Below, piece after piece: positions 535 through 57,656 of a stretch of 64,000 bases of DNA. A model generated the notes under the pieces. That model saw nothing but the letters and a program-made list of their open reading frames with translations. It did no database searches and was not told the origin of the DNA. Made by a program: the position numbers and the translations under genes. Source of the DNA: Paramyrothecium sp. XJ0827 (taxonomy: Eukaryota; Ascomycota; Sordariomycetes; Hypocreales; Stachybotryaceae); assembly GCA_020881915.1 (NCBI GenBank), contig JAJFPB010000013.1, positions 682,001-746,000 of the forward strand. The letters are read 5' to 3'. The stretch's first letter is position 1. Each line of letters opens with the position of its first letter.

Positions 535-767
535 AAAGAAAATCATATCACTCCCATCTATTCGGTTATTCAATCTCAAAGCCAAAACTTCCTGTCCAAC
601 GTCGCCCTATTTCATGCTACCCTATACCCCCGCCGAAAGACAAAAGATCTTGAGGCAAGCCTTCTGTATCCATCGAATAGAGACATTCTGCACTCAATCC
701 CAACGAAATAGCTGGCCTGAATTCAGGAAAATGTGAGGAAATTTCTCCAATCTCTCAATTCCGGTTA
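535..767. other. Short intergenic stretch between convergent genes
   Basis: This is the space between the end of the plus-strand exon and the end of the minus-strand chromodomain gene. It presumably holds both 3' untranslated regions. No other feature is seen. Confidence 0.4.
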
Positions 768-1868
768 TTACTCGAGGACAGTATCGAACCTGCGTTCTTT
801 CACATCCTGCAGTCGGTTCGGACTCAGCAGTCTCCCACTGACCCAGCCATTATACGTTGGCATCTGGCCATGCCAATGAACCAAGTACTGAGGCTTGCCT
901 GCTTTCATTCTTGATTTCAATACGTCGATTCCGGTGCCAAATCCGTCATATTTGGCCTCGAACTCGGCAACCATTACTTCGTCGATGTTCTTCCTAGGTT
1001 CCCATCCAGTCGTACCGTCTGCCCACTCCAAGAAAAACCGTCCCCTCCAGCGAGCATGAATGCGATTCACTTTGAATACACCAGACTCATTGTCTGCGAG
1101 CATCCGCTCAGATGTGGATTCAACATTCTCATTGCTGCGCTCAGCCTCTTCGACAATATTTTCGCAATCTGCTCTCCAGCCCGCAGTTGAGTCTGAAACT
1201 TCATGGCCGTTCTTACGTCGCTTCGCCCCTGGCATTGCTTTCGTCTCATGAGAGCTAGGCTTCGTTCCTTCTCCCCGAGTTCTTTTTGTAGGCTGTTGAA
1301 CATATTGCATGGTATCTGAATTTCGATCCATTTGCTGTGATTCTGTGGATTCATCATGAGACAGTATTGTGCCTCTTGTTGATACCGCACAGATTCCCGA
1401 TTCATGCTGACTGTTTTGTGTATCTGGATTTGCCTTTGTGAGAATAGCCGTAGAGGGTGATGGCCGTGAGGTATCGACAACTTTGGATTTAGTTGGAGTG
1501 ATGAAACCGTTTGTTACTTCGCTGACCATGGCGAAGATTTTGCCTATACCCGGCAGCTTACTTCTTTCTGGATAAAAAGATGAACCAAGAATGATGGAGG
1601 AAGATGAGGCGCTGCCTAAAGTCTTGGGACCAGCCGCATCTGCCTTCCATTTCTCTAGCAGCTCTTCCACGGTTGGAAACTCTTCATCTGACGATATCGA
1701 GCCACTCCTCGACTTATTGCAAGCTTTCTGATTGTACTCGCGTGTCTCTCCATTTTGATTCGAATCCAAATTCGGCGAGATCGAAGTTTCATCGCCATCC
1801 ATGATGTAAGCCGCTCTTGCGAATGGAAGATCCTGGACTGTATGGTTTTGTGGACTTTGGCACTCCAT
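768..1868 (-). CDS. Tandem chromodomain-like nuclear protein
   Basis: A single-exon frame of 366 aa. Residues 1-250 are low-complexity, rich in Ser, Thr and charged residues, with a basic patch (PGAKRRKNGHE) that may be a nuclear localisation signal. Two chromo-like units follow. The first, at about 264-305, has the pattern FKVNRI, then FFLEWADGTTGWEPRKNI, close to the chromodomain core with its aromatic residues and the W-E-P-x-x-N-I signature. The second, at about 309-360, reads YLVHWHG with a later GWV and is more divergent. Chromodomains usually bind methylated histone tails, so a chromatin reader role is likely by family, but the target cannot be read from sequence. The ATG at 1868 is the first in frame; an upstream exon is possible. 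It lies 8 kb from the H3-tail-like gene. Confidence 0.7.
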   Translation of the reverse strand: MECQSPQNHTVQDLPFARAAYIMDGDETSISPNLDSNQNGETREYNQKACNKSRSGSISSDEEFPTVEELLEKWKADAAGPKTLGSASSSSIILGSSFYPERSKLPGIGKIFAMVSEVTNGFITPTKSKVVDTSRPSPSTAILTKANPDTQNSQHESGICAVSTRGTILSHDESTESQQMDRNSDTMQYVQQPTKRTRGEGTKPSSHETKAMPGAKRRKNGHEVSDSTAGWRADCENIVEEAERSNENVESTSERMLADNESGVFKVNRIHARWRGRFFLEWADGTTGWEPRKNIDEVMVAEFEAKYDGFGTGIDVLKSRMKAGKPQYLVHWHGQMPTYNGWVSGRLLSPNRLQDVKERRFDTVLE

Positions 1869-2622
1869 GATAAACGTTGCAAGCGTCTTCTATACGGTAA
1901 AACTAGGTTGAATGATCTTGATGATGAAGTCCGTTGGGTGATGCTCCTGCTGAAAGAATAAGGTCGTGGTCGTGGAGGGAGGTTCAGTTTAAGTATTTGA
2001 TAATGTGTTTGACTGAGTGAGGAGAAGAAATCAGGGGCAGCGTGCTTAAATGCCCTCCTGAACTCGCGTCCCACGGACCGAGATCTATGATCTCCGCCAC
2101 GGCACCTAAGACGGCATCCCCGAAGCTATCTACTAACAAGGTATACAAGATAGTGGGATCAGCATACAAGCCACGGGCAACGTACGCGCTTAGAACCTTC
2201 TTGGAAGGTGAGCCATCAATGCGACTCGAGAAAGGAACCTAGTTCTCGGGTTTCTGGAGCCTGTCACGTCGTCGAGGCTGATTGTCTACTATTATTAGGT
2301 CACCAAGCACTTCGTTTGTCGCTCCTTCAAACCAGCTTCTCCACACAGGAAGAGGCAGTGTGGAACTTCATGGGGGCAGTGTTCGGTTTTGCCACCTGCC
2401 TCCACGCTCAGGAGGCCATCAAGGGCCTGGGTACTACAGATGATAGCAGCTGGCGATGGCAAAAGACCTGTAGCGCAAGGCAGATAAGACGACTGACTGT
2501 TCAGCCGGGTTGTCATAGCATCACAAGCAGGGACATCATTCGTCCCCCTTAATTGCCGAATCGATGACAACGCTAGGCGAAAAGAGTGCAAGGGAAGGAA
2601 AGCTGGGGGTGAGTCCAGGGAT
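1869..2622. other. Intergenic region, nothing recognised
   Basis: Probable promoter of the chromodomain gene at the left edge. The remaining open frames are short, overlap each other on both strands and show no known domain. Confidence 0.3.
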
Positions 2623-2823
2623 TCAGATAGTGACGAAGAGTGAAGGTTCAGGTTCGGAAAGAGGAGGTGCTGATTGGAGTCTAAGAGTGTTCAGAGCCGC
2701 TCCCATTGTTTCGATACTATCGATACGCCCAATTTCCACAATGATGACGACTCCTTTCTTATTCGGTCTGTCCAACTGGTCGATTATCCTAGTCATGGCG
2801 TCTTGGTCATGGTTTAGGTCACT
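2623..2823 (-). CDS. Possible isolated 3' exon
   Basis: On the minus strand a frame with protein-like composition opens after an in-frame TGA and runs to a TGA at 2623-2625, about 66 codons. It contains a run of hydrophobic strand-like sequence (KKGVVIIVEIGRIDSIETMG) followed by a Pro/Ser tail, which reads like the end of a globular protein. It has no good ATG, so it would need an upstream exon, perhaps from the gene at 3376-4350. The evidence is composition only. Confidence 0.2.
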   Translation of the reverse strand, partial: SDLNHDQDAMTRIIDQLDRPNKKGVVIIVEIGRIDSIETMGAALNTLRLQSAPPLSEPEPSLFVTI

Positions 2824-3375
2824 TCAGCGAGACGCCGAAGCAGGGTGGCATGGCTTAATAAGTATTCAGAGGCTATGGCGCGGCAGCATGCCATCGGACT
2901 GACCATTATGCACACTCTCAGGGGCAGCGGGCAGTGGCGCGCTGAGGGTCAACCGGGGGACTGCGGTGATACATTTGGTCATGGAGTAGTTTGAGGCTGA
3001 TGATGCCGAAGGCTAAGCCGCCTCAGGCGCTTCCTTCATGTCACGCGGCTCAGTAATTGGCACAACTGGCTGGCACAAGAGAGGGCATGTGAAATGACAC
3101 AGCCCGCTTCAAAACAGCCAACCACAAGTCCAATCCCTCCACACGCGCCAGATGAGGATGTCTTGAAAGGGGGCGGCCATGGTATGCTCAGCTACGCCCC
3201 TAGCACCTTCTCATCCTCCGAAGCCGGATTGTTCTCTCAGCTCCTATTGGTCTCGGCGTTGGTGGCACCTCTATGACAAGAGAAGCTAGGGCAAGATATG
3301 ACAGTGAAGTTTTCGATAAAACTGGTCTTTGGGTGGGTTGCGTAACGTAACGGTTTCTACTCAATTGAGTGTATC

Positions 3376-4350
3376 TCAAGGTGTGAAAGAGGATGGTTGT
3401 TGGCTTATCCAGTTCCCAAAATTGTCCCCGAACTTGACGTCTGCCTCCTCCTGTGTTAGAAAGAATATTGACGACGAGGTAGCGGCACGAGGTACATTCG
3501 CAAGAGACGTTGGAGAGGTTACTGGACTCAGCCGTCTCCGTACCACATTAACCATATGAGCAGATGATGGGGCCATCTCAATGTCCTTTCCATTGCGCCG
3601 GCCTGAGGGCACAGAAAATACTCTTTCGTCTACATTGTCCGAATCGCTGGTAAGGTCTATGACAATTGGTGGGCTCTCGGTGCCACATTGCTCGGCGTAT
3701 CAGTCGACGAGGGAGCTAGAGATGCTCTGCTTGTTTGAGATATTGCCTGAACACAATATGTCAGAGCGGCCGAGGATAAGGACGTTGATGTTAGGTTTAT
3801 CTCTTACCAGACGACCACTGATTGCACGAGCTTTGGATATGCGCAGAATAGCTTGACCATCCACAGGCATCGAGAGATCATCCCCAATACAGAATGACTT
3901 CGAGACGCTTTGGAACGGGTCGTGCTTCCATATTCTTCCAGGCTTGATTTTAGTTTGTTTGGCGCTCAACATTGCACTGATCTTATTGCGGCTCGTTATC
4001 CACAACACTTGCTCCAGGATATCGACTCTTTGTTTCCTCTCGTCCTCAGTGATTGGTTCAATGTTGTTCTCGCGAGGCCAAAACCAGGTTTTCCACTTGT
4101 CGTGGAACGCCGACGCCACCTCATAACGACGGAAAAGGGCATCTCGGTTGTCTCGCCTCCGAGACTCGGATAGGGCTGATAGGGCCTTCTCGGCTTCATC
4201 CGCACTAAAGGGTTCAGTGATTTTGTTGATCATTTGATCCCTGGCGGCATAGAGTTCCAGCATGAATTTTGTGTATCGCATGGAACTACTGTTCGTTAAA
4301 TGGAGCCGTCGAAGTAGTGTTTTAATTGGTGGAACTTGTTGCTTTGGCAT
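3376..4350 (-). CDS. Unrecognised protein with a SUMO-interacting-type motif; in-frame stop or small intron
   Basis: The first part, 216 codons from ATG at 4350, is Lys/Arg-rich and helical, with a WKTWFWP segment near residue 87. It ends at a TGA near 3704, but the same frame continues without another stop to 3376. The continuation carries IVIDLTSDSD, a classic hydrophobic core followed by acidic/serine residues, as in SUMO-interacting motifs. The TGA is either removed by a small intron whose length is a multiple of three (a GTGTTC donor lies at about 3754) or it truncates the gene. The C-terminal part is Ser/Thr-rich. SIMs tether proteins to sumoylated partners, often in chromatin or ubiquitin ligases; that role here is inference. 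Confidence 0.45.
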
Positions 4351-4596
4351 TGTGTTCGTTGTTGTAGAACATTAGCCATTCCAGGCGCAAGGTGCCTCCG
4401 CAGACGTTTTAAGTTGACAACGGCCTGTTACTGCGTCCAGGGGCTGCCCAGTAACTATTAATCACGAAAAGCAGACATAATTCTGGCCCGCACAAAGCTG
4501 CAGGTTCATCTCCGGGCCCCTTTTGCCGACCAGGATGGACAGCAGCAGAGGGCTTGGCAGGGAACAAACGGGCTCAAATGGGGTCAGCCGAGAAAC

Positions 4597-4650
4597 GACG
4601 ATCTACTCATAAGTTACCAAGATAGTCCCAACGACGGAGGCACCGGGATG
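4597..4650 (+). repeat. Imperfect direct repeat, copy 1 of 2
   Basis: This stretch contains atctactc..aagtt, then gacggaggcaccg and atgaa. It matches 5247-5300 over about 50 bp at roughly three quarters identity, in the same orientation. It is probably a remnant of an old dispersed element. Confidence 0.4.
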
Positions 4651-5246
4651 AATGCGAGGACCAGGCTTGGATGCAAGGTCCCGATTTACCTGAAGGTTGC
4701 CATGTCAGCCTTCGTAGGTTCCAGAGAGGGTCTAGATGGAGTCCCTGACTTCCCATGAACTGCATGGGATGGGTGGCTGTGCTCGAGCGGGCTTTTGGCA
4801 CCCTCGTGCACATGATGGTTGTCCACACCTGCTGAGCCTGTCTTTGGTTCAGCCGTGGGAGGCCAGGAGATAGACCAAATTACCGTCGCGTGGAGGCGAT
4901 GTTTAAGATCTGCTTAAAGCCTTCTAAGCTGACCAACAAGGTTAGGGCAATCTCAGCCAACTATGCTGGGGGCGATGACGCCGCGAATAAGGATAGACGA
5001 CCCAACCTTATCGTAGGAAAACGCCTCGTTACGAGCTTACAAGAGCTTACGTGGAATCAGCGGACACGCCGAGACTAATGCGGGTTCTTGGCTCCATAGA
5101 GCCTCCTGAGACGCTCGTAATGCAGAGGGTAATGGCGGTAGCGGCGGCAAGAGAGATCAATGCCTGTACATGCCAGCGTGGAGTCGAGGCGGAGCAGATG
5201 ATCCCTTCGGTTCTCAGGAGGCACCCTCAGGGGTTGAGACAATTAT

Positions 5247-5300
5247 CTACTCCAAAGTTGCCTAGGATAGTCTCGGCGACGGAGGCACCGACATGAACGG
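5247..5300 (+). repeat. Imperfect direct repeat, copy 2 of 2
   Basis: Second copy of the unit at 4597-4650, sharing the exact core gcgacggaggcaccg and flanking matches. Differences include several C/T and A/G transitions, as expected of an old or RIP-affected repeat. Confidence 0.4.
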
Positions 5301-6218
5301 GAACTCACAGGTACTTGGGACCTTCCTATTGACAGCCCCAAAGATACGGGGTGATACAAGGGGTTCTTCTGTGCCACACGGGCCGCGTGTACAGCCCATC
5401 AGGCTTTCCTCTGCCCGGCAACTCCAATGAGAGAAGTCCTTCACGCCTTTGCTGGTAACAAGACGCTGCCGTCTATACACACCCCCTCTGACTTTCGACC
5501 CCTGAGATAGGCTGGCAATCCCTCACCTTCCTCTTTATCACCAAACAATACCTATTAATTTTCCTTCAAAGTTATACTCTCGCCCAGATGGCAGAATTCG
5601 TTTTGGAAACTATTGGTATGTATCCTTGTTGAGTGGTGAATCTGGCTGATCATTAGGTAGCCGATGAGGGCACAGAGGAGGGCACTGTACTCCATGATAA
5701 TGGATACAGCATTGTATTTCATCCAGTATGCCTTACCTTTCATCGAAACGTGAAGATACAAGCTTATTTAATGTTAGGAAATAGCTGTGATTCTACCTCC
5801 AAGTTTCGGTGTCACGCTCAACAAAGTAGGCACAGTCTGTCGACCTGGAACTGAAATGTTACTAACGTTGGATGCAAGGTCTTCATTATGGTGCGAAGCG
5901 AGAACGATAATACGGAACGTGTTGTGGTCATGAATAACAAAGAAATTAAGAGCTGGAGGAAGAACTACACCTTGGCTTTTGCTTGGGAAAAATCCGCCGA
6001 GCAGGGGGAATGTTGAGATCAGTTCAGTATTCATGGGATATCTTGAGGAACATTATGAAATTGGGTCATTTTCGAGCAAAGGTTCTGAGGCACACCTTGA
6101 TACCGTTTGCGAGCTCTATCTCTTGGATGGGCCTGTCTCACATCATTCGTAAGCAGGGCAAGGTGGACAAATAACAATTATTTCGTCCTGGTGCTCAGGG
6201 CTCCCACCAGGATGAGAA

Positions 6219-6294
6219 TATAAAGGCTTCATCCCTTTCCTCTTCTCGTTTCTTCTTTCTCTTCTTCTTCTTTTTTTTTCTTTTCTTCAGGCGA
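6219..6294 (+). promoter_or_regulatory. Core promoter of the RBR ligase gene (TATA plus CT tract)
   Basis: TATAAA at 6219-6224 is followed by a 60-base pyrimidine tract (6229-6290), an arrangement common in filamentous fungal promoters. The likely translation start is the ATG at 6447, giving a 5' leader of up to about 150 nt. Confidence 0.5.
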
Positions 6295-6446
6295 GCTATT
6301 ACGTGCCGTTATTTGTGGTTTTCACATGTGACTCGCAACGACGGCTTCTTTCCTTCCTTTTCTTTTCTTTATTTCAGTCCAACGCGTCCATCCCACTTAC
6401 CTTCTCATCCGTGCTGGTTGCGACTAGGCCCTGCCCGGATCCGACG

Positions 6447-8791
6447 ATGCCCGCGCACACGAATGTTCCTATCGAAGCCTTGAAATACGTGAAGAATGAA
6501 TTACCTATCGTCGGTCATGGGATTGGATCCGAGACAGGCCTGGACCAGAAATGGCTGGGCGACCAGTTACTAGAGTTGAGAAGTCTGAACCAACCAGATC
6601 ACTCTAAGGCGAGAAAGCGGCCAAGAAATGGCGACGATGACGACGACGAAAACGAAGGCGACGACGGAGGTATCCAGGATGGGAAAGAGGGAAAGGGGGG
6701 GGCACCTAAAACAAAACAGCGCAAAGGGAGAAAAAAAAGCAAACTTGGAATGAAGCCGGCCGATACCATAATCTTCGACGAGTGTCAAGGAGAGGATACC
6801 GTCGATGAGGACCGTAAAGGGATCGAATACTATCTATGGAAGAAAGCCCCTGAACGCACGCGATGCGCGAGAAAGAATGTGTTCGTTTCTCCCCGTTGCT
6901 ATTCAATTACGAGACACAAGACTGACGATAGCGTTCGTAGTTTGAAGCAATTTAAGGTGCTAGTCCCGGGCTAACTGCCGTGACGGCCGGCAAGACCCTT
7001 ATCAACAACACGGTATTTCACGCATACATTCAGCTGCACAACTGGAAAACCAGAAAATTCAACATGGCGCTGGAAGACGATGATGCGACCAAAGCCATAC
7101 AGCGCGATGACTCGGTGGCGGATGAGGTTCGCGCCGCGAAAAGATACCTCCGCAGAATGGACAAGACCCTCATCAAAGAAAGTGTGTGATGATACGCAGG
7201 AGGCGAAAGAAGATACATTCCTGAGTTTTTTTTCGGCTGACTGGCGTGACCATTTTAGGAGAAAAGGACACCTTCGCCGCTATGCCCGCTCCTAGCGCTC
7301 CTCCCATGGAGAATGTGGATTTGAATGGCGACAATAATGTGCAGATGGTCGGCGAGCCGGCTGGGGCCCAGCCGGATGACGCGCCTGACCAGCCAGATAA
7401 TGAAGAGGCACCGAAAATTATGTGGTACGTCCTCAGCTTCCGGATACCCGAGCCTGGTCGCGGTCCACAACCGCGAGAGACAAAGCGTGCGTGCTAATGA
7501 AACATTTACAGTCTGGTTTGCCGGGACGACACCCCAAAGGCTGATGTCGTGCGGTGTAGGAGAGACGAAGAAGACGAGAAAACTGGCACGAGAATTATGA
7601 ACACAGCCATACATGCGATATGCCGCCCGTGTCTCCCGGAACTAGCCCAAAACGCTATGACAACACCGGCAAAACGAGCCAGATGCCCAGGCGAGAAGTG
7701 TCCGGCGTTCTTCCCGGTGGAACAGTTCCAATTTCTCATCGAGCCGAAGTCCAACCTCTACGACTTCGATCTGTATAGCAACCTGTTGCGAAAGGAACTA
7801 GTGGACGATGTCCTGGGAGCGAACCCATACAACGAGGCTTGCCCCTTCTGCGACTACATCGAGAATTTCGAGGGTCTTTCCAAGAACGAGTACCCACGCC
7901 TCGAGTGCCAGAACAGCGACTGTGGCAAGCTCAGCTGCAGGTTGTGCCTAAGCTGGACTAATGATGGCAAGACGTGCGGAGAGGCCAAGATGCCAGACCT
8001 GGCAGAGGATGCAGAAGAGCAGACGCGACAGCTGACCCAGCTGCTGGACAACGCAAAGTCAGAAGCCCGGGTGCGCAGTTGCGCCCGCTGTAAGGCCGGC
8101 TTCGAGCTCGAGACCGGGTGCAACAAGATCCGATGCAAGTGTTATCACTATCAATGGTATGTATAGGCCCTGACCGCATTGCACTCCACCATCTTTGTAT
8201 GCTATAGATTTCATTTACTGATGAATCGTGTGCCCCAGTTACTACTGCAGGGAGTCGCTAGTCGCGATCGAGGATGAGGACGAGATTAGGGCGCTGCAAA
8301 AGGAGAAGGAGGAGGCGAAAGATGCACTCAGGAAATTGTGCGTTCACCCCGAACGTCTCAACGTCAGCGACCACGAAGAGCAGTGTCGGCTCTTGGAAGC
8401 GGAAATCGGAAGGCTGAGGGGGGAACTCGCGTTGAAGAAACAGTTGGCAGGGGACAGGGCCTACATGCACTTCGATCGCGGCGCTCATTCGATTTACAAG
8501 AAGGACAAGAGATGCCCTTTGTATTCCAACGTTCACCAGCTTCATACCCTGAACCAGGTACAAAGCATCCTGGAAATGAAAGATTGGATCCTGGAGCACC
8601 ACCCGGAACGCGCCAACAAGATTGTCTTGGATCGCCTAACGGAGAATCTGATGAGCGAGCAACACGACAGCTGGGTCGAGCTGATCTGCAAGGCTAAGCT
8701 GGACCTCGCAAAACATCCCTTTCCGGGGCCAGTACCGGCACAGGCACAGGCACAAGCGGCACAGCCGCCACAGCTACGAGGTGGAGTATGA
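6447..8791 (+). CDS. RBR-type E3 ubiquitin ligase, RNF216/TRIAD3-like
   Basis: Predicted CDS join(6447..6956, 6995..7181, 7259..7424, 7512..8156, 8239..8791), 686 aa; all phases agree. The 38-nt first intron is the least certain. The N-terminus has an acidic DDDDDENEGDDG stretch and a basic KQRKGRKKSK patch. RING1 only appears after splicing: CLVC at 7423-7524, then CRPC and CPGEKC. The IBR follows with CPFCDYIENFEG, CQNSDC and CRLCLSW. RING2 has CARC, TGCNKIRCKC and CYYCRES, the last formed across intron 4. The Cys in TGCN sits where RBR ligases carry the catalytic thioester cysteine. The CPFCD start of the IBR and the RING2 pattern resemble RNF216 rather than parkin. A coiled coil (about 500-570) and an AQAQAQAAQ tail end the protein. 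RBR ligases take ubiquitin from an E2 and transfer it to substrate; the substrate is unknown. Confidence 0.85.
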
Positions 8792-9105
8792 CACCAGGAG
8801 CGGCTCCAGGCAATGTTGATGACGGCAGCAGCAGGCACCGTCGAGCAGGGGGAGGGGCGGCGATGCGGGTTCCGCCGTAAAACAACCACGCCACGCACGG
8901 GGAATCAGGAATGCAGGGCCAGCCGGCGGCGAACCAGGCAATTATACGCTAGCCCCCTCTCTCCCCTTGAACCGCGCGATTGCCAAACCCGTTGTGCACA
9001 TGGAATTAATGGGCGCCGACGGCGCAAAGGCGGCCGCCCAACTTAACCAATGAGACGAGACGATCGGAGGCCGAGGCTTACCTTTACTCCCTATCAGTAC
9101 TCAAG
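8792..9105. other. Intergenic, 3' region of the RBR gene
   Basis: GC-rich sequence with short open frames on both strands. No domain or repeat recognised. Confidence 0.3.
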
Positions 9106-9240
9106 GCTGTAGGCATGATGCCCTTATCCGGAGCCCGATGGAAACTCCGGCTACGGTGCTCAAAGGTAATGAGCTCTTAGTATTTGTTCCGCTTGTGTTA
9201 CTCATGAGACTGGGTCGACTCAGTACCGGAAGTCGAACCA
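9106..9240 (+). repeat. Diverged direct repeat flanking the H3-tail gene, copy A
   Basis: The sequence gcat-a-gc, then gagcccgatgg and actccgg, ending gactcagta, aligns with 10680-10813 in the same orientation over about 130 bp, with many transitions and small indels. The two copies bracket the H3-tail-like gene. Confidence 0.45.
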
Positions 9241-9615
9241 TGGAGGCATATCCGAATGTAGTCCCAGGGACTGAGGCGCAGCGCACCGTCATCTGATCAG
9301 TCAGATGCGCCGGGGAGGCCGAAATCAGGGACGCGCGGAAGCAGGATGACATGTCTGGATGCCGCGGAGGGCCGTGTCAGGTCTAATGGAGGCAACTAAC
9401 CATGTTACTAATGGCGACAACGAGCGAATCACCTAGGAGGTATCAACGGCAGGATAGGCGGGCATGCCTCTCGCACGCATCAACTTCGTGTCTTCGTACA
9501 AGTTGGGGGCGCAATGATAACGATAGCCTCATAAGTACGGATCAATTACTGGCTCCTCTCCTACTGAGTTGGTGATATAATGAGCTAGTGGGTATAGATG
9601 CCATAGATAACCAAT
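9241..9615. other. Intergenic, nothing recognised
   Basis: Short region downstream of the H3-tail-like gene. It probably contains that gene's 3' untranslated region (minus strand). No further feature is visible. Confidence 0.3.
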
Positions 9616-10233
9616 TTATCGCCTCCTGCCAAACTTGAACAACTCTTCGTCACTGTCATCATCCTCTGTGTTACCTCCATCTTCGCCCTTCCGACCCGCC
9701 CTTGCCATTTCAAATGTTCGCTTCTGGCCTCGGGTATTATACCGACAGACACTATTCGTTCTTGGAATACGACTTTCGTCTGTGATTTGCTGTTCCGATA
9801 CCTTGGCTGGTTCAGAGCGCGTTCCTGGATCGATTTGCGTTTCCTTCTCAGTGGTGACTTGTCTATATATGTTGCGAATCTCAGGCACGGAGATGAAGGA
9901 GATATTCACATCATATCGTTCCTTGTCGATTCCCTTCATTGCAACAGCGAGTTCTTCCTGGACAGACTTTGATGGTTTGCTTAGGTCTTTGAGGATATCA
10001 CTGAGAGCTCGCAGTGATTTTTGGTCAAGGCTTTCGAGCAAATCCCTGAATGAGGATTCGGCAGCGATAACCTGTATGCGGTTTTACTCATTAGAGGAAG
10101 AAACCGATTAGCGGGTTCGACTTACTTTGAGGTCTCGCGGGGCGGCTTTACCTCCAGTTGATTGCATGTTGTCCCGCTTAGGACTTTCCACGCCGCCTCT
10201 TGATGCCCGAGGTGTCTGTTTGGTTCGCGCCAT
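9616..10233 (-). CDS. Histone H3 tail mimic fused to a non-histone protein
   Basis: Predicted CDS complement(join(9616..10071, 10126..10233)), 187 aa. The 54-nt intron has a perfect GTAAGT donor and a CATACAG acceptor, and the phase is 0. Exon 1 (36 codons) begins MARTKQTPRAS, identical to the first seven residues of histone H3 including Met, with Lys at the H3K4 position. It ends QSTGGKAAPRDLK, matching the H3 K9-L20 segment (KSTGGKAPRKQL) with an insertion of about 14 residues between the blocks. Exon 2 is unrelated to the histone fold: a helical region (LLESLDQKSLRALSDILKDL), a middle part, RYNTRGQKR, and an acidic then basic tail (EDDDSDEELFKFGRRR). It could be a decoy or scaffold for H3-tail readers or modifiers; that is inference. 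An in-frame ATG 12 codons upstream (10269) has a weaker context; use of it would bury the tail. Confidence 0.75.
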
Positions 10234-10679
10234 TACATCGAGAAAGGTGAATCGGGAGAAGTTGAGCATCTGGTACAGGAGGGCTAGTCATGGTCTTTTG
10301 TAGGAACCGACATCAAGACTGACCCAAACCTAAATAGAAACGTTGCAGCCTGCCCATTAGCCAAAGCCCTGAACCCGCAAGAATCCTGAATGAAAAGGAT
10401 CGTCTGCTCCACCCGCTATGCAACCCCCAATCCCCTTGTTATCATTCATGCCAACTCGCCTGAGAACCCATGTAAAGCCATCCCCTATAGGTCCAACACA
10501 ATCACACGATCATCATCTATTGGATCTTACGCGGCCTGTCCGACTGGCATATCGGCCTTGTCATGGGAACAGGCCGACCTAGTCCAAACTAGGGTGACAT
10601 GTCCGAGTGTAATCAGTCCCGCCTGTGGCTGGTTCTGAAACTCCATTAGTTGGTTGGCGCCAGTCAACTCCAGGTCCCC
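10234..10679. other. Upstream region of the H3-tail gene
   Basis: This 450-bp stretch presumably holds the promoter. No TATA box or CT tract is obvious. The last 150 bp resemble old repeat DNA. Confidence 0.3.
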
Positions 10680-10813
10680 TTGTGTAAGCATCAGGCTCCT
10701 ATCGGAGGCCCGACGGCTACTCCGGTTGTGTTGCTGGCGTGGGAGTTCGTATTGTCCAAGTGAAGTGAGCTGTTGTCTGACTCATTAGATTAGGCCGACT
10801 CAGTAAGGGGTTC
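10680..10813 (+). repeat. Diverged direct repeat, copy B, cut by hAT element 1
   Basis: This aligns with 9106-9240 and ends exactly where hAT element 1 begins at 10814, so the transposon sits inside this repeat copy. The repeat does not resume to the right of the element. Confidence 0.45.
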
Positions 10814-13800
10814 CAGTGAAGTAAATAGTGTGGCCGTAAATAAGACAATATCATATTCAATATCGTATTGCCTGCACGGTATAAAAATACCGTGCAGTGC
10901 AAGCAACACCGGAAACCGTGCAATACAGTGCATGGTCGTTCAAATATCGTATAAATATGATATCAAATATAGTGCAAGTACTATGTAATACGAGTAGTAC
11001 GAGGATTCTCCCCATATATGAAGCATTATGAAGATCCCAATTTACAGGACTTTTTACTAACGAAGTGTAACCTGGTTGATCTGCACTCGGTTGATTGCCG
11101 ATAGTAATAACGCCACCAAATAAAGGCCTCGTCACAAACTCCTGAGTGTTTGAGTGAGTATGTAACAAGCTCGCCAGCTCTCCGAGAGCTTTCAGTTCTT
11201 CTTTTCTTCAATGCAATCAATTTGTTGGTTTCCAAGCATGCTTCTGGACGAATAAGGCCTATGCCCCTGACATGAAGCGTGTCAGCTCCTGAACTTTTCC
11301 CTACTTCCTCAACAAGTCTTATCCTACGAAATAATGGCTTCTCAGCGCTCAGGCATTAGCGCTTCCTTCACGGCTACATCATCCCAGACTTCCCTAGCCC
11401 CTGGTTCGTCGGTTATCAGCGACAACGGAGATTCTGATGTCGGAGAGACATCTATTTCGCCGTTGTTAACCTCTCAATTTAAGAAGAAGAAGCGTACGTC
11501 GAAGATATGGGATCATACGCCCTTCGGAAGGAATCAGATCGTCCGTAATACGGAAGGTCAGATTATATGGCGTTGCAAGTACTGTAAAGGGAAGCCTGCC
11601 GAATATCTCGAAAATGGAGGCACGGCACACATCTACAAGCACCTTAAATCTCACACTACTCTCGATATATTAACGCCTAATGAAGAAAGGGCTGCTAAAA
11701 CAAGGAATCACCTTGAGGAAGCCTTCTCACGGATGTCTCAGAACACGAATCCCCTCAAACGCCGTCGACACGATGACGAAACGACAGATCTTGACGCTGA
11801 TAAGTTTGAGCAACTGTATGTAGAGTGGATTGCAGACTGCGGGATTGCACTTCGTATAGCAACAAGAGAAAGCTTTCGAGCGTAAGTGCTCTAATACACT
11901 TAAGATTAATGGTTCATATACTAATCTTATGCCCTTTTAGCTTGCTCAAATTCCTCAATCCTGGAGTCCTCTCGATTTTACCTACATCACATCAAACGAT
12001 TCGCGAGTGGGTGATGCGAACGTTTGAGACGCAAAAGCGACGTATACGACAAGTTCTCCAATCAGCTATCTCGAGAATACACTTCACCGTCGATATATGG
12101 TCCTCTCCAAATAAGCTTGGTATCCTTGGTATTGTTGCACACTTCATTGATAGCAACGGCGAGCTGGTTTCATATTGTGTCGCTTTACGAGAGGTACACG
12201 GCAAGCATTCAGGAGAGAATCAGGCCCATATCGTGATGAATGTCGTCGAGGACTACGGAATTGTCACCCAGATTGGATACTTTGTTTCAGACAATGCAGA
12301 CTCGAATGATACGTTGATGAATTCTCTACAGAAATGCACGCCTCTATCAATTTATTGAGAGAACAATACTAATGATTAATAGTGTTGAACGAGAGGCACA
12401 ATATCATATACGACGCGAAACATCACCGCCTTCGTTGTAACGGTCATACCATCAATCTAGCGGCTCATGCGTTTATGTTCCCAAAAACCGCACCCGACGA
12501 AGCCCCTACGAAAAACCAGGTTAAAAAGGACACTACGAGCGAATATATCAAGCCTTCAGACGCTGATATATTGAAGTGGAGGAAGGCTGGTCCTCTTGGC
12601 AAGCTCCACAACATCGTTGTCTTTATCCGATGTAGTCCACAACGGATACAGAGGTTTAAGGAGATCAGTGAGAAAAAGGGTCTTCTTCGTGACAACGATA
12701 CAAGATGGAACTCAAAGTACTACATGATTGAGAGAGCCATTGAGCTTGCAGATCAAATTGATTACTATTGCTCAAAGGAGAAGGACCTTAAGCTTGATTC
12801 GCGTATGCTATATATCCAATTGAGAGGACAACACTAATAGTTTCTAGTTTCCGAACAAGACTGGGCTGAGCTGAAAAAAATTTGCAACTTCCTCAAGTCA
12901 TTCACCGATGCCACCAAGGCTGCAGAAGGTCACGCGCATACAATCGATCACGCTACCCATAATGGACTTCCTGCTTAGCAAATTTGAGGCTGCACGAATC
13001 GAGTACGCAGATGACGCTTTTATGACGCCTTGTATTGATGCTGGATGGGCGAAACTCGACGCATATTACACTCTTACAGAGCGGTCACCTGCTTATGTTG
13101 CAGCTATTGTCCTCAGCCCTCATCGAAAGTGGCACTACTTTGACACCGCCTGGGAGGAACATCCTGAGTGGATTGAGAGCAATAAGACTGCCGTAGAAGA
13201 TCTCTGGAAGTCTCGTTACGCACCAGTCGCCAAGTCAGCGGAATCGTCGGCCCAGTCCTTGGTTGAAAAGCCACTAGTGAAGAACTCGTTTCTTGCATGG
13301 GAAGACGAACATGAGGACCCCGAGCTTCCTACCCTATTTGACGAGTATCAGAACTATATATCAGCCCCAAGAATCAAAGTCAAGGATGTACGAAGGTGGT
13401 GGCTTGAGGATACACAACAAACGCTCTATCCAAACCTTTCCAAAATGGCGCTCGATCTTTTGTCAATTCCTGCGATGTCTGCTGAGCCAGAACGTCTCTT
13501 CTCTGATACAAAAATCACCCTCCAAGATCGCAGGAACAGGTTAGGGATTGATATAATTGAGGCAATTGAGTGCATAAAGTCCTGGTCGAAGTCTCACAAA
13601 TTGGCTTGGGTTGACGACGTTAAGCTTGTCTTGGATACAGCTATCATTGGAGAAGAGGAACAGCAGGGGTCTTCTAACATTATACCTGATATTACGAGCA
13701 ATAGATAGTATGCAAACAATTCAAACTCATAATGCTCGAATCTGTGGAGTTTTCTTTTGACCCCTAGATCTACCTACTTCATTCTCACGCTTAAGCAATA

Positions 13801-14172
13801 GGAGTGACGTTAAATTAGTCAATTATGTAGCTTAAGTAAACCCTTAACATACGCGAGCGAGGTCTAGGAAAACGTTTTCCTGAGCGTTCTCGTTATCTGG
13901 CAATAGTATAATCTTATATGTTGACTGTGAATGGCTTCATCTTGTTAGGGTCCGTGAGACTATCTTGAGCCTCAACCTTACTCAATGTGGTTAGTTTTAT
14001 GCTTAGGCCATGCGGCTCTTCGCACGCCGTGCGATATGATATTACGATACGATATTGCTTAAATATAGTGGAATACCGTATGCCGTGCAGTGCACCGAAT
14101 TCCTAAACAATCCAGTGCAGTGTGGCGTTGAAAAAATATCGTATACCGTATTTTGCACTATTTACTTCACTG
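10814..14172 (+). mobile_element. hAT element 1, 3359 bp, with transposase
   Basis: The ends are perfect inverted repeats CAGTGAAGTAAATAGTG and CACTATTTACTTCACTG. Subterminal regions are AT-rich with palindromes such as tgcacggtataaaaataccgtgca split around 10871-10895, typical of hAT transposase-binding arms. The flanking 8-mers (aggggttc left, ctgacgac right) do not match, so no target duplication survives. A deleted copy at 35001-35861 has the same ends and a perfect 8-bp duplication, which confirms the borders and the superfamily. Confidence 0.9.
11334..13708 (+). pseudogene. hAT transposase of element 1, probably frameshifted
   Basis: Exons 11334..11881, 11941..12335, 12383..12802 and 12848..13708. 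An N-terminal BED-type zinc finger (IIWRCKYCKG with a later HIYKHLKSH) is followed by the RNase H-like core (FTVDIWSS, then FVSDNADSNDT, then RCNGHTINLA) and the C-terminal hAT dimerisation region (LLSIPAMSAEPERLFSDT at about 13470-13520). Intron 2 would use a GC donor (GCACGC). In the last exon the frame changes once near 12940-12950: the upstream part reads GHAHTIDHA and the continuing part LPIMDFLLSKFE, so one indel, or a very small unrecognised intron, breaks the protein. Everything else is open. It could have supplied transposase to the deleted copy before the lesion. Confidence 0.8.
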
Positions 14173-14247
14173 CTGACGACGAATACGAGTCGATTAGTTT
14201 CGATCCGCGATGACGATCGTTAGTCCAGGGGATGTGATCCACAGAAA
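14173..14247. other. 75-bp spacer between two hAT elements
   Basis: Contains gagtcgatt and tttcgatccg, similar in style to the arms of element 2, but no repeat of the left flank of element 1. It is too short to interpret. Confidence 0.3.
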
Positions 14248-35000: not shown

Positions 35001-35861
35001 CAGTGAAGTAAATAGTGCAAAATACGGTATACGATATTTTTTCAACGCCACACTGCACTGGATTGTTTAGGAATTCGGTGCACTGCACGGCATACGGTAT
35101 TCCACTATATTTAAGCAATATCGTATCGTAATATCATATCGCACGGCGTGCGAAGAGCCGCATGGCCTAAGCATAAAACTAACCAAATTGAGTAAGGTTG
35201 AGGCTCAAGATAGTCTCACGGACCCTAACAAGATGAAGCCATTCACAGCCAACATATAAGATTATACTATTGCCAGATAACGAGAACGCTCGGGAAAACG
35301 TTTTCCTAGACCTCGCTCGCGTATGTTAAGGGTTTACTTAAGCTACATTATTGACTAATTTAACGTCACTCCTATTGCTTAGGTGTGAGAATGAAATAGG
35401 TAGATCTAGAGGTCAAAAGAAAACTCCACAGATTCGAGCATTATGAGTTTGAATTGTTTGCATACTATCTATTGCTCGTAATATCAGGTATAATGTTAGA
35501 AGACCCCTGCTGTTCCTCTTCTCCAATGATAGCTGTATCCAAGACAAGCGCAACGTCGTCAACCCAAGCCAAGTTGTGAGTCTTCGACCAGGACTTTATG
35601 CACTCAATTGCCTCGATTATATCAATCCCTAACCTGTTCCTGCGATCTTGGAGGCATATATGGGGAGAGTCCTCGTATTACTCGTATTACATAGTACTTG
35701 CACTATATTTGATATCATATTTATACGATATTTGAACGACCATGCACTGTATTACACGGTTTCCGGTGTTGCTTGCACTGCACGGTATAAAAATACCGTG
35801 CAGGCAATACGATATTGAATATGATATTGTCTTATTTACGGCCACACTATTTACTTCACTG
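35001..35861 (-). mobile_element. Internally deleted, inverted copy of hAT element 1 (861 bp)
   Basis: Positions 35001-35654 are the reverse complement of 14172-13519, and 35655-35861 that of 11020-10814, with equal lengths (654 and 207) and only scattered substitutions. The 2498 bp between 11021 and 13518, most of the transposase, are missing. Both 17-bp termini and a perfect 8-bp target duplication are present. It is non-autonomous and must have moved, or been copied into place, with transposase supplied in trans. Confidence 0.95.
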
Positions 35862-56564: not shown

Positions 56565-57056
56565 ACTCAGAGTCTGTTGGCGCCAGGATCTATCGATTCT
56601 GTGTTTTTCTTTGTTACTACATCACACTGGAAACGCTGGATCAGGAAGGTAAGACTCTGAGGATGTAACTGATTAAAAATAGATTTGGGTCACGTTCTTG
56701 ACTCACGATAATCCTAATTTCAATGTCGATTTTTACAAGTCATGTAAGCTTGGTGCAAGGCAATAGATAGCCATATTCTAATTGCGCACCATGTACATGA
56801 CGAACTCGTAGCTAATCAGATCCATTGTGCAACTGCCTATTACTTTTCCAAGAGCGAAGAACCCTTCGATCTGGAGGAACTAATCTAACTCTGGCTCTTG
56901 ATCTACTATTCTGTGGGTCTTCATGATTTGGGGGCCGGTTGTGCAGCCATTAGTTCCCTTCTAGCCCCATCATTAGCCTACGGCGTTGGCACTGGAATGA
57001 GCAGAGTTTTGGGCCGGTTGTGCAGCCATTAGTTCCCTTCTAGCCCCATCATTAGC
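56565..57056. other. Intergenic with the start of a tandem duplication
   Basis: No gene. From 56933 it contains a 79-bp tandem duplication that runs into the 3' end of the following minus-strand gene. Confidence 0.35.
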
Positions 57057-57090
57057 CTACGGCGTTGGCACTGGAATGAGCAGAGTTTTG
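56933..57090 (+). repeat. 79-bp tandem duplication, two copies
   Basis: Copies 56933-57011 and 57012-57090 start ggccggttgtgcagccatta and are essentially identical, followed by a third short start (ggccggctgtgagc) at 57091. The second copy encodes the last residues of the adjacent minus-strand protein; the first is a spare 3' end. Confidence 0.9.
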
Positions 57091-57656
57091 GGCCGGCTGT
57101 GAGCAAACTCGAGCTTGACGCAGCCATCCTGCACGACTCCGCAATGCGAAGGCCGTCCTTTTTGCGTCATCTCAATGCACTCGACCATCGCTCCTAGTAG
57201 AGAGTTCTTGAGGCAACCTTGTGGCCACGAAATCATGTACTGGTAAGACAGCTTCTGTTCTGAATGATAATAGTTCCCAACGATCCTGTTAGCTTGACCA
57301 AGTACACTCCTCTGTCTCAAGGACAGGCAAAAATTGGTCAAGAAAAGCAGATGCGCTTTCTGTGAGTTTATTGCATTCAGACTGTTCATATCGCAGGGCA
57401 ACGTGTAGCTTGTCTCAATCGTCAGGTTAGAAACCCTGTCTTGTGCCCTACCTGCCACTGATGTTGCCGCTTGCTGGATTGGACTGGAGACGGGAAATGG
57501 TGTTGTGGGTGTTGCCTCAGCAGCTCGTCCGTCCCGATCTTTATATGCATCTAGAGATGGCGCGCCAGGCTCGAGAGTGGTGGGATTCTCAAAGGCCTGA
57601 GCGGCTTGTAAAGGAATGAAAGCCCAGATAAGGACTATTAGATATGCATATTCCAT
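57057..57656 (-). CDS. Putative secreted protein with Cys-rich C-terminus
   Basis: The frame is open to 57743, but Met at 57656 begins a good signal peptide (MEYAYLIVLIWAFIPLQAAQA), so about 199 aa are predicted. A Pro/Thr/Ser-rich segment (residues 30-70) leads to a domain with PQGCLKNSLLGAMVECIEM and SHCGVVQDGC. Family not recognised. The stop codon lies within the second 79-bp repeat copy, so its C-terminus (SRPKTLLIPVPTP) may have been altered by the duplication. Confidence 0.55.
   Translation of the reverse strand: MEYAYLIVLIWAFIPLQAAQAFENPTTLEPGAPSLDAYKDRDGRAAEATPTTPFPVSSPIQQAATSVAGRAQDRVSNLTIETSYTLPCDMNSLNAINSQKAHLLFLTNFCLSLRQRSVLGQANRIVGNYYHSEQKLSYQYMISWPQGCLKNSLLGAMVECIEMTQKGRPSHCGVVQDGCVKLEFAHSRPKTLLIPVPTP

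Follow-up and report, generated by a model that had tools for sequence, protein, structure and literature searches.

A two-exon gene starting with the H3 N-terminus

Why does a gene whose product shows no histone fold start with the first residues of histone H3, and could this product act as a free H3 tail? The window, which is the whole stretch of 64,000 nucleotides analysed here (G000:C4:682001-746000), lies on a contig of 1.02 Mb (C4) in a genome of 51.8 Mb in 15 contigs. A two-exon gene on its minus strand, at positions 9616-10233, gives a 187-aa frame starting MARTKQT. The gene model has the following parts:

10126..10233, minus strand: exon 1, 36 codons, H3-like N-terminus MARTKQTPRASRGGVESPKRDNMQSTGGKAAPRDLK, found in 3/4 copies of the gene
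10072..10125, minus strand: intron of 54 nt, GTAAGT..CATACAG, phase 0, after residue 36, read from the sequence
9616..10071, minus strand: exon 2, 151 codons plus stop, without a Pfam match or a credible PDB sequence match
10267..10269, minus strand: in-frame upstream ATG, 12 codons up, its frame broken by a TGA in the copy C14c

For the splice choice, every intron of the GT..AG type with a length of 40-120 nt beyond the ATG at 10233 was enumerated, and a frame longer than 120 aa was required. Three candidate introns left such a frame. The 54-nt candidate has the donor GTAAGT, an internal branch-like CTAATG and the acceptor CATACAG. The splicing predicted in vivo is supported by the paralogue C14c, whose intron of 55 nt has 6/54 aligned sites changed plus one indel, and whose sole exon indel is in frame. 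The sequence-only reading of this DNA had proposed one clean 54-nt intron and a 187-aa MARTKQT frame; the enumeration and the paralogue bear out both.

G stands at both -3 and +4 of the MARTKQT ATG, and C at -3 of the upstream in-frame ATG. Translation from the upstream ATG, which the same reading had named as a finding that would count against it, is unlikely because a TGA interrupts the 12-codon extension in C14c (evidence from C14c, not from the window copy). The MARTKQT start is therefore favoured, and this objection is weakened.

H3-like blocks of exon 1

Three stretches of exon 1 resemble the H3 tail:

10213..10233, minus strand: block 1, MARTKQT, the H3 Met plus A1-T6 with K4 retained, unchanged in 3/3 copies with exon 1
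10174..10203, minus strand: block 2, SRGGVESPKR, like H3 S31-R40 (STGGVKKPHR) by alignment and shuffles, with E at the K36 position (K in C14c)
10129..10164, minus strand: block 3, QSTGGKAAPRDL, like H3 K9-L20 by alignment and shuffles, with Q (L in C14c) where H3 has K9, and K14 retained; STGGKAAPRDLK is unchanged in 3/3 copies with exon 1

The exact MARTKQT start pattern has 5 occurrences in the 51.8 Mb: one in the true H3 gene, three in copies of the present family and one in another gene. The reversed pattern, used as a control, was found at 0 places in the same 51.8 Mb. The window gene thus carries N-terminal ARTKQT with K4, and K9 in its ARKS context is missing, the aligned position being Q (L in C14c).

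Blocks 2 and 3 were compared with shuffled sequences. For QSTGGKAAPRDL against the H3 tail, an equal or better score was reached in 144/50,000 query shuffles and 54/50,000 H3 shuffles. In the ungapped comparison of SRGGVESPKR with H3 S31-R40, 210/50,000 query shuffles and 315/50,000 H3 shuffles scored as high; for the C14c version, SRGGVKSPKR, the counts were 44/50,000 and 51/50,000, respectively. Block 2 of the copy C14a is shortened by a deletion, and 890/50,000 query shuffles scored as high. SRGGVESPKR can also be aligned to H3 8-19 with one gap, so its source region in H3 is ambiguous. On these alignments, exon 1 reads as H3 1-6, then a 31-40-like stretch, then a 10-20-like stretch, and block 2 may instead echo H3 8-19. 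It had been claimed that an insertion separates MARTKQT from QSTGGKAAPR. Both blocks are present, but the supposed insertion, SRGGVESPKR, is itself H3-like. The claim that the H3-like part coincides with exon 1 holds, and MARTKQT is present in all three exon-1 copies, the window's included.

When the 36-mer of exon 1 was searched against PDB sequences, H3 was the top match, but with E=0.22. With exon 1 of C14c, the ribosomal protein eL29 came first (E=0.59) and H3 after it (E=1.8). With exon 1 as query of its own genome, only the three family copies were listed and the host H3 was not recovered.

The body encoded by exon 2

The Pfam search of the 187-aa protein gave 0 families at E<=10 and no histone fold was detectable, as had been read from the letters for the part outside the H3-like blocks. 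The PF00125 profile listed 13 places in the genome, none of them at the window gene. The PDB sequence search gave nothing credible for the window protein. No relatives were found in 5.8 billion proteins, a collection known to hold fungal proteins. Two features can be described:

9835..10068, minus strand: predicted four-helix part, exon-2 residues 2-79, from AlphaFold2 on 3 sequences
9643..9666, minus strand: acidic EDDDSDEE close to the C-terminus, with LFKFGRRR after it, read from the sequence

In the AlphaFold2 model (3 sequences), block pLDDT was 76-92 across the first 80 exon-2 residues and low beyond. The modelled helix pattern of exon 2 is unlike the histone fold.

Relation to the host H3 gene

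The host H3 (C12:2731798) shares the peptides MARTKQT and STGGKA with the window protein. The window protein differs from it in block order, at K9, in intron position and at silent sites, and the histone fold is missing. The intron of the host H3 gene is in phase 1 within codon A25, and that of the window gene is in phase 0 after residue 36. Third positions were alike in 3/14 shared codons, where random codons would give 4.2. The sequence-only reading had proposed exon shuffling from an H3 gene as the origin of exon 1. As a recent event with the host H3 as donor, this was rejected because silent sites are at the random level and the intron differs in position and phase. Residues that match H3, combined with third positions no more alike than chance, are what preservation of the peptide rather than of the DNA would produce. 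Judged from these codons, the tail would be either ancient and conserved as a peptide, or taken from a donor whose codon usage differs, or convergent.

Copies in the genome and their constraint

The family has four copies, the window copy on C4 and three loci in the last 230 kb of C14:

C14:3466518, plus strand: C14c, full length, with a 55-nt intron, a TAG acceptor and a 203-aa frame with an extended C-terminus
C14:3297132, minus strand: C14a, whose exon 1 has lost 9 nt of the linker in frame and whose exon 2 is frameshifted by a 4-nt insertion
C14:3329711, plus strand: C14b, exon 2 plus 27 nt of the 3' end of the intron, with other DNA where exon 1 would be

A homologue that keeps the second half and has no H3-like exon had been named in advance as evidence against the gene being an H3-tail carrier. 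C14b is such a homologue, but it still has 27 nt of the family's intron, and its lack of the H3 exon is therefore read as a secondary loss. At the C14b locus (C14:3329693-3330862), exon 2 differs from the window copy by 5.0% (23/456), and the flank differs by 1.8% (50/2,767; Fisher P=1e-4). Gene conversion or fast evolution may have caused this excess divergence.

Between the window copy and C14c there were 23 non-silent and 5 silent changes (dN/dS 1.39), and between the window copy and C14b exon 2 there were 19 non-silent and 4 silent changes (dN/dS 1.41). These two values are indistinguishable from 1, the probability of so few silent changes being 0.17 and 0.19, respectively. Positive selection is not claimed, since the neutral expectation is not rejected. 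The comparison with C14a gave 4 non-silent and 3 silent changes (dN/dS 0.40, from 7 changes only).

In exon 1, the three copies differ by 5 substitutions (one silent) in C14c and by the 9-nt deletion in C14a, all outside MARTKQT and STGGKAAPRDLK. The chance that 0/5 exon-1 substitutions fall in those 57/108 nt is 0.023, and the chance that 0/28 substitutions of the CDS fall in the same 57 nt is 0.051, with block borders picked by H3 identity in both cases. Q24, the K9 position, is changed in C14c.

The chief rival to a tail mimic is a drifting chimera in a repeat-rich block, in which a fragment of the H3 tail was captured long ago and the copies, weakly or not constrained, have no chromatin function. 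We regard this as a real possibility, though a doubtful one. It agrees with the near-neutral dN/dS of about 1.4, with one copy being frameshifted (C14a) and one being without exon 1 (C14b), with the orphan status of the window protein in protein searches, and with a hAT element adjoining the gene. Moreover, the frame survived 28 substitutions in 36% of 5,000 simulated neutral copies. However, the H3-identical blocks are unchanged in 3/3 exon-1 copies while the rest changed, the residues are the same as in the host H3 despite randomised silent sites, and C14c has kept its splice sites and the frame across its exon indel.

A second family with the same N-terminus

The fifth exact MARTKQT start in the genome is at C8:685917-686857, in a 293-aa protein starting MARTKQTAKRYGK. 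This protein has a weak Pfam ABM match (E=0.0026, below the cut-off). Among 688 candidates, 63 relatives were found at E<=1, and the named ones bear fungal genus names, including Hypoxylon, Apiospora, Colletotrichum, Aspergillus, Podospora, Phlyctema and Trichoderma. For the N-terminus count, 19/63 rows without the WTRF start region were dropped, and 44 rows reached the region. MAR precedes the WTRF region in 42 of these 44 rows (in P0004 internal to a longer gene model) and is missing in P0023 and P0057. Across the 42 rows, which were selected for MAR, the matches per residue were T3 32, K4 38, Q5 26, T6 27, A7 30 and R8 24; MARTK was present in 30 rows, MARTKQT in 16 and MARTKQTAR in 10. The ABM-like consensus MARTKQTAR equals H3 1-8, and residues beyond R8 are mostly unlike H3.

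On the tree of the 42 rows, those with at least 6/8 matches (29 rows) and those with fewer (13 rows) are interspersed, with 11 changes against a shuffled mean of 11.3. Rows with 8/8 matches stand on both sides of the midpoint root. The tail match is no more clustered than chance on this sequence tree, which can mean turnover. In the model of P0001, the N-terminal tail has pLDDT 46 over the first ten residues and is followed by alpha-beta domains; the tail is presumably disordered. Foldseek matched the P0001 model to monooxygenases, PenE among them (E=1.5e-6; TM-score 0.39 by query length).

With the C8 protein as query of its own genome, 5 matches were listed, on C8 and C13, none of them at the window gene, which has no WTRFHLP/ABM-like body. 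By these comparisons the ABM-like family is unrelated to the window gene family. Since the two families are distinct, non-histone proteins with the H3 N-terminus are present at least twice in this genome. One-mismatch MARTKQT matches on C10, C11 and C13 were considered as further mimics and rejected; two are internal to longer frames, and the frame of the third ends at its seventh codon.

The second family also bears on the view that the MARTKQT start arose by convergence, as may have happened in the ABM-like family, and serves a non-chromatin role, such as N-terminal processing or targeting. A family of monooxygenase fold, without an obvious chromatin role, carries MARTKQTAR too, and third positions are mutually unlike (3/14 alike for H3 and the window gene, 2/7 for H3 and the C8 gene, 1/6 for the window and C8 genes). 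Yet a start motif alone leaves the H3 likeness of blocks 2 and 3 unexplained, and the agreement with H3 runs six residues past Met. We consider this explanation improbable.

The surrounding block and the hAT element

The window gene lies in a duplicated block with the following features:

671..14247, no strand: block on C4 with a second copy at C14:3287143 to about 3297912, identity 96-98% in the larger aligned pieces
768..1868, minus strand: chromodomain gene in the same block (PF00385, E=3.6e-6, 27.2 bits, cut-off 25.1)
6303..8791, plus strand: neighbouring frames in the same block, a stretch of which resembles IBR (half RING; PF01485, E=0.0011, short of the curated cut-off)
10814..14172, plus strand: hAT transposon with terminal repeats AGTGAAGTAAATAGTG, 580 bp upstream of the window gene, which is outside it

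The C14 counterpart of the block lacks the hAT insert and most of 9101-9455, and the element is missing at the corresponding site in C14a and C14c. As a present vehicle of the window gene the transposon was rejected, because the gene at 9616-10233 is outside the terminal repeats of 10814-14172. The gene neither stands between terminal repeats nor holds the H3 globular domain or coding sequence.

It is very improbable that the window gene is a decayed copy of a hAT-captured H3 gene like those of Pyrenophora and Pseudocercospora: such capture by fungal hAT elements is published (in the cited parts of PMC3538342 and PMC6710886) and an element sits 580 bp away, but the gene is outside its repeats, the element is missing at the site in C14a and C14c, and the cases described in those parts hold the globular domain or H3 coding sequence, whereas the window gene has tail-like blocks only, reordered and followed by an intron. 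H3 capture by a hAT element could still be a distant source of exon 1.

Other observations were made in the window and the genome. The hAT element at 10814-14172 has terminal repeats of 16 bp, a shortened copy is present at window positions 35001-35861, and an end of the element was found at no fewer than 35 further places in the genome (40/44 candidates scored). Window positions 56932-57101 hold two overlapping direct copies of 91 nt, offset by 79 nt and 98.9% identical. Two genes for H3-like histones, each with a long frame preceding the histone fold, are present at C4:24170-24549 and C4:489751-490133, in an 8.1-kb duplication 98.6% identical. As a lead only, they were compared with the "two putative histones" on a transferred accessory chromosome of Metarhizium mentioned in the cited part of PMC10687773. 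TTAGGGx5 was found only at the start of C13. Its reversed control, (GGGATT)x5, gave 31 exact forward matches genome-wide, and a GGGATT repeat may exist elsewhere. The only 5.8S rRNA match in the assembly is at C9:2907815-2907966. Compared with the usual 5.8S sequence, this match looks C-to-T changed, in the manner of RIP, and is perhaps a relic outside the rDNA array.

Proposed role of the window protein

We tentatively favour, at somewhat less than an even chance, the reading that the window gene encodes a soluble H3-tail mimic competing for proteins that bind the H3 N-terminus. Its processing, binding and function are given here as we infer them from sequence. The initiator Met is removed when Ala follows. 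Its removal would leave a free A-R-T-K-Q-T end on the window protein. This end might be bound by writers, erasers or readers of H3K4, such as Set1/COMPASS-type complexes, LSD1- or JARID-type demethylases and PHD fingers. Because the protein has no histone fold, it would act in trans, outside nucleosomes, as a decoy or as a bridge from H3K4-binding proteins to a partner of the helical exon-2 part. A role as a K9-methylation substrate is unlikely, since the K9 position is Q or L while K4 and K14 are kept.

The mimic reading is favoured by the 187-aa frame, the intron and the three blocks, joined to a body without a Pfam match whose modelled helices are unlike the histone fold. It is also favoured by the confinement of exon-1 differences outside MARTKQT and STGGKAAPRDLK (0.023; 0.051), and by an unrelated fungal family with the same consensus N-terminus, carried in the P0001 model on a low-confidence tail. 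There is a precedent as well in the H3-tail-like SNAG N-terminus, which occupies the H3K4 enzyme LSD1 (cited part of PMC5896174). The reading is weakened by the near-neutral dN/dS (1.39/1.41), the frameshift of C14a, the loss of exon 1 in C14b and the lack of relatives in 5.8 billion proteins. It is also weakened because blocks 2 and 3 are supported by shuffles only, with PDB-wide E-values that are not significant and the host H3 not recovered, and because the ABM-like tail match is unclustered on its tree (11 changes vs 11.3).

A wider idea, which we put forward as possible but on the doubtful side, is that fungi repeatedly built H3-tail decoys, with two unrelated families in one genome both tuning H3K4 readers and writers by competing with nucleosomes. 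The window gene would then be an orphan on a duplicated, chromodomain-bearing block, its rearranged H3 tail able to take K4 but not K9 marks. A verbatim H3 N-terminus on non-histone proteins, present in several copies of one gene and separately as the consensus start of a family widespread in fungi, would offer a genetically simple route to find out whether soluble H3 tails serve cells in the regulation of H3K4 enzymes. Non-histone proteins of fungi might also be picked up by anti-H3K4 antibodies, in peptide pull-downs and in mass spectrometry aimed at the H3 N-terminus.

Comparison with known systems

Histone mimicry is known from viruses and from a few animal proteins. The SNAG domain, borne by transcription repressors, imitates the H3 tail, though not letter for letter. 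In GFI1/SNAI1 it is an N-terminal H3-tail-like peptide that occupies the substrate cleft of LSD1, as described in the cited part of PMC5896174, and to that extent it is like the window protein, which also bears an H3-tail-like peptide on a non-histone protein. Unlike SNAG, the window protein is identical to H3 over A1-T6, further H3-like blocks follow, and its binding to an H3K4 enzyme is a prediction. EZHIP (CXORF67), called an "oncohistone-mimic" in the cited part of PMC6513997, is a human non-histone protein that imitates part of the H3 tail and inhibits a chromatin enzyme. According to that part it imitates the K27M region, whereas the window protein has the H3 N-terminus.

In fungi, the cited part of PMC3538342 describes H3L genes with an H3-like globular domain in hAT elements of Pyrenophora tritici-repentis, and that of PMC6710886 describes hAT elements of Pseudocercospora fijiensis with captured H3 coding sequence containing exon-exon junctions. 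These cases are like the window gene in having extra H3-like sequence in a fungus with a hAT element nearby or enclosing. They differ, as far as those parts go, in that H3 is inside the terminal repeats, while the window gene lies outside the element and has tail-like blocks only, joined by splicing to an unrelated exon. The sequence-only reading knew of no described fungal family of this kind. None was indeed among the matches listed in the open-access PMC literature for the H3 N-terminus on non-histone proteins of fungi, but H3-carrying hAT elements are described and the ABM-like family shares the N-terminus. That family differs from the window protein in its ABM-like body, in a tail without its own exon and in having no further H3 blocks seen. 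H3 mimicry as such is already known.
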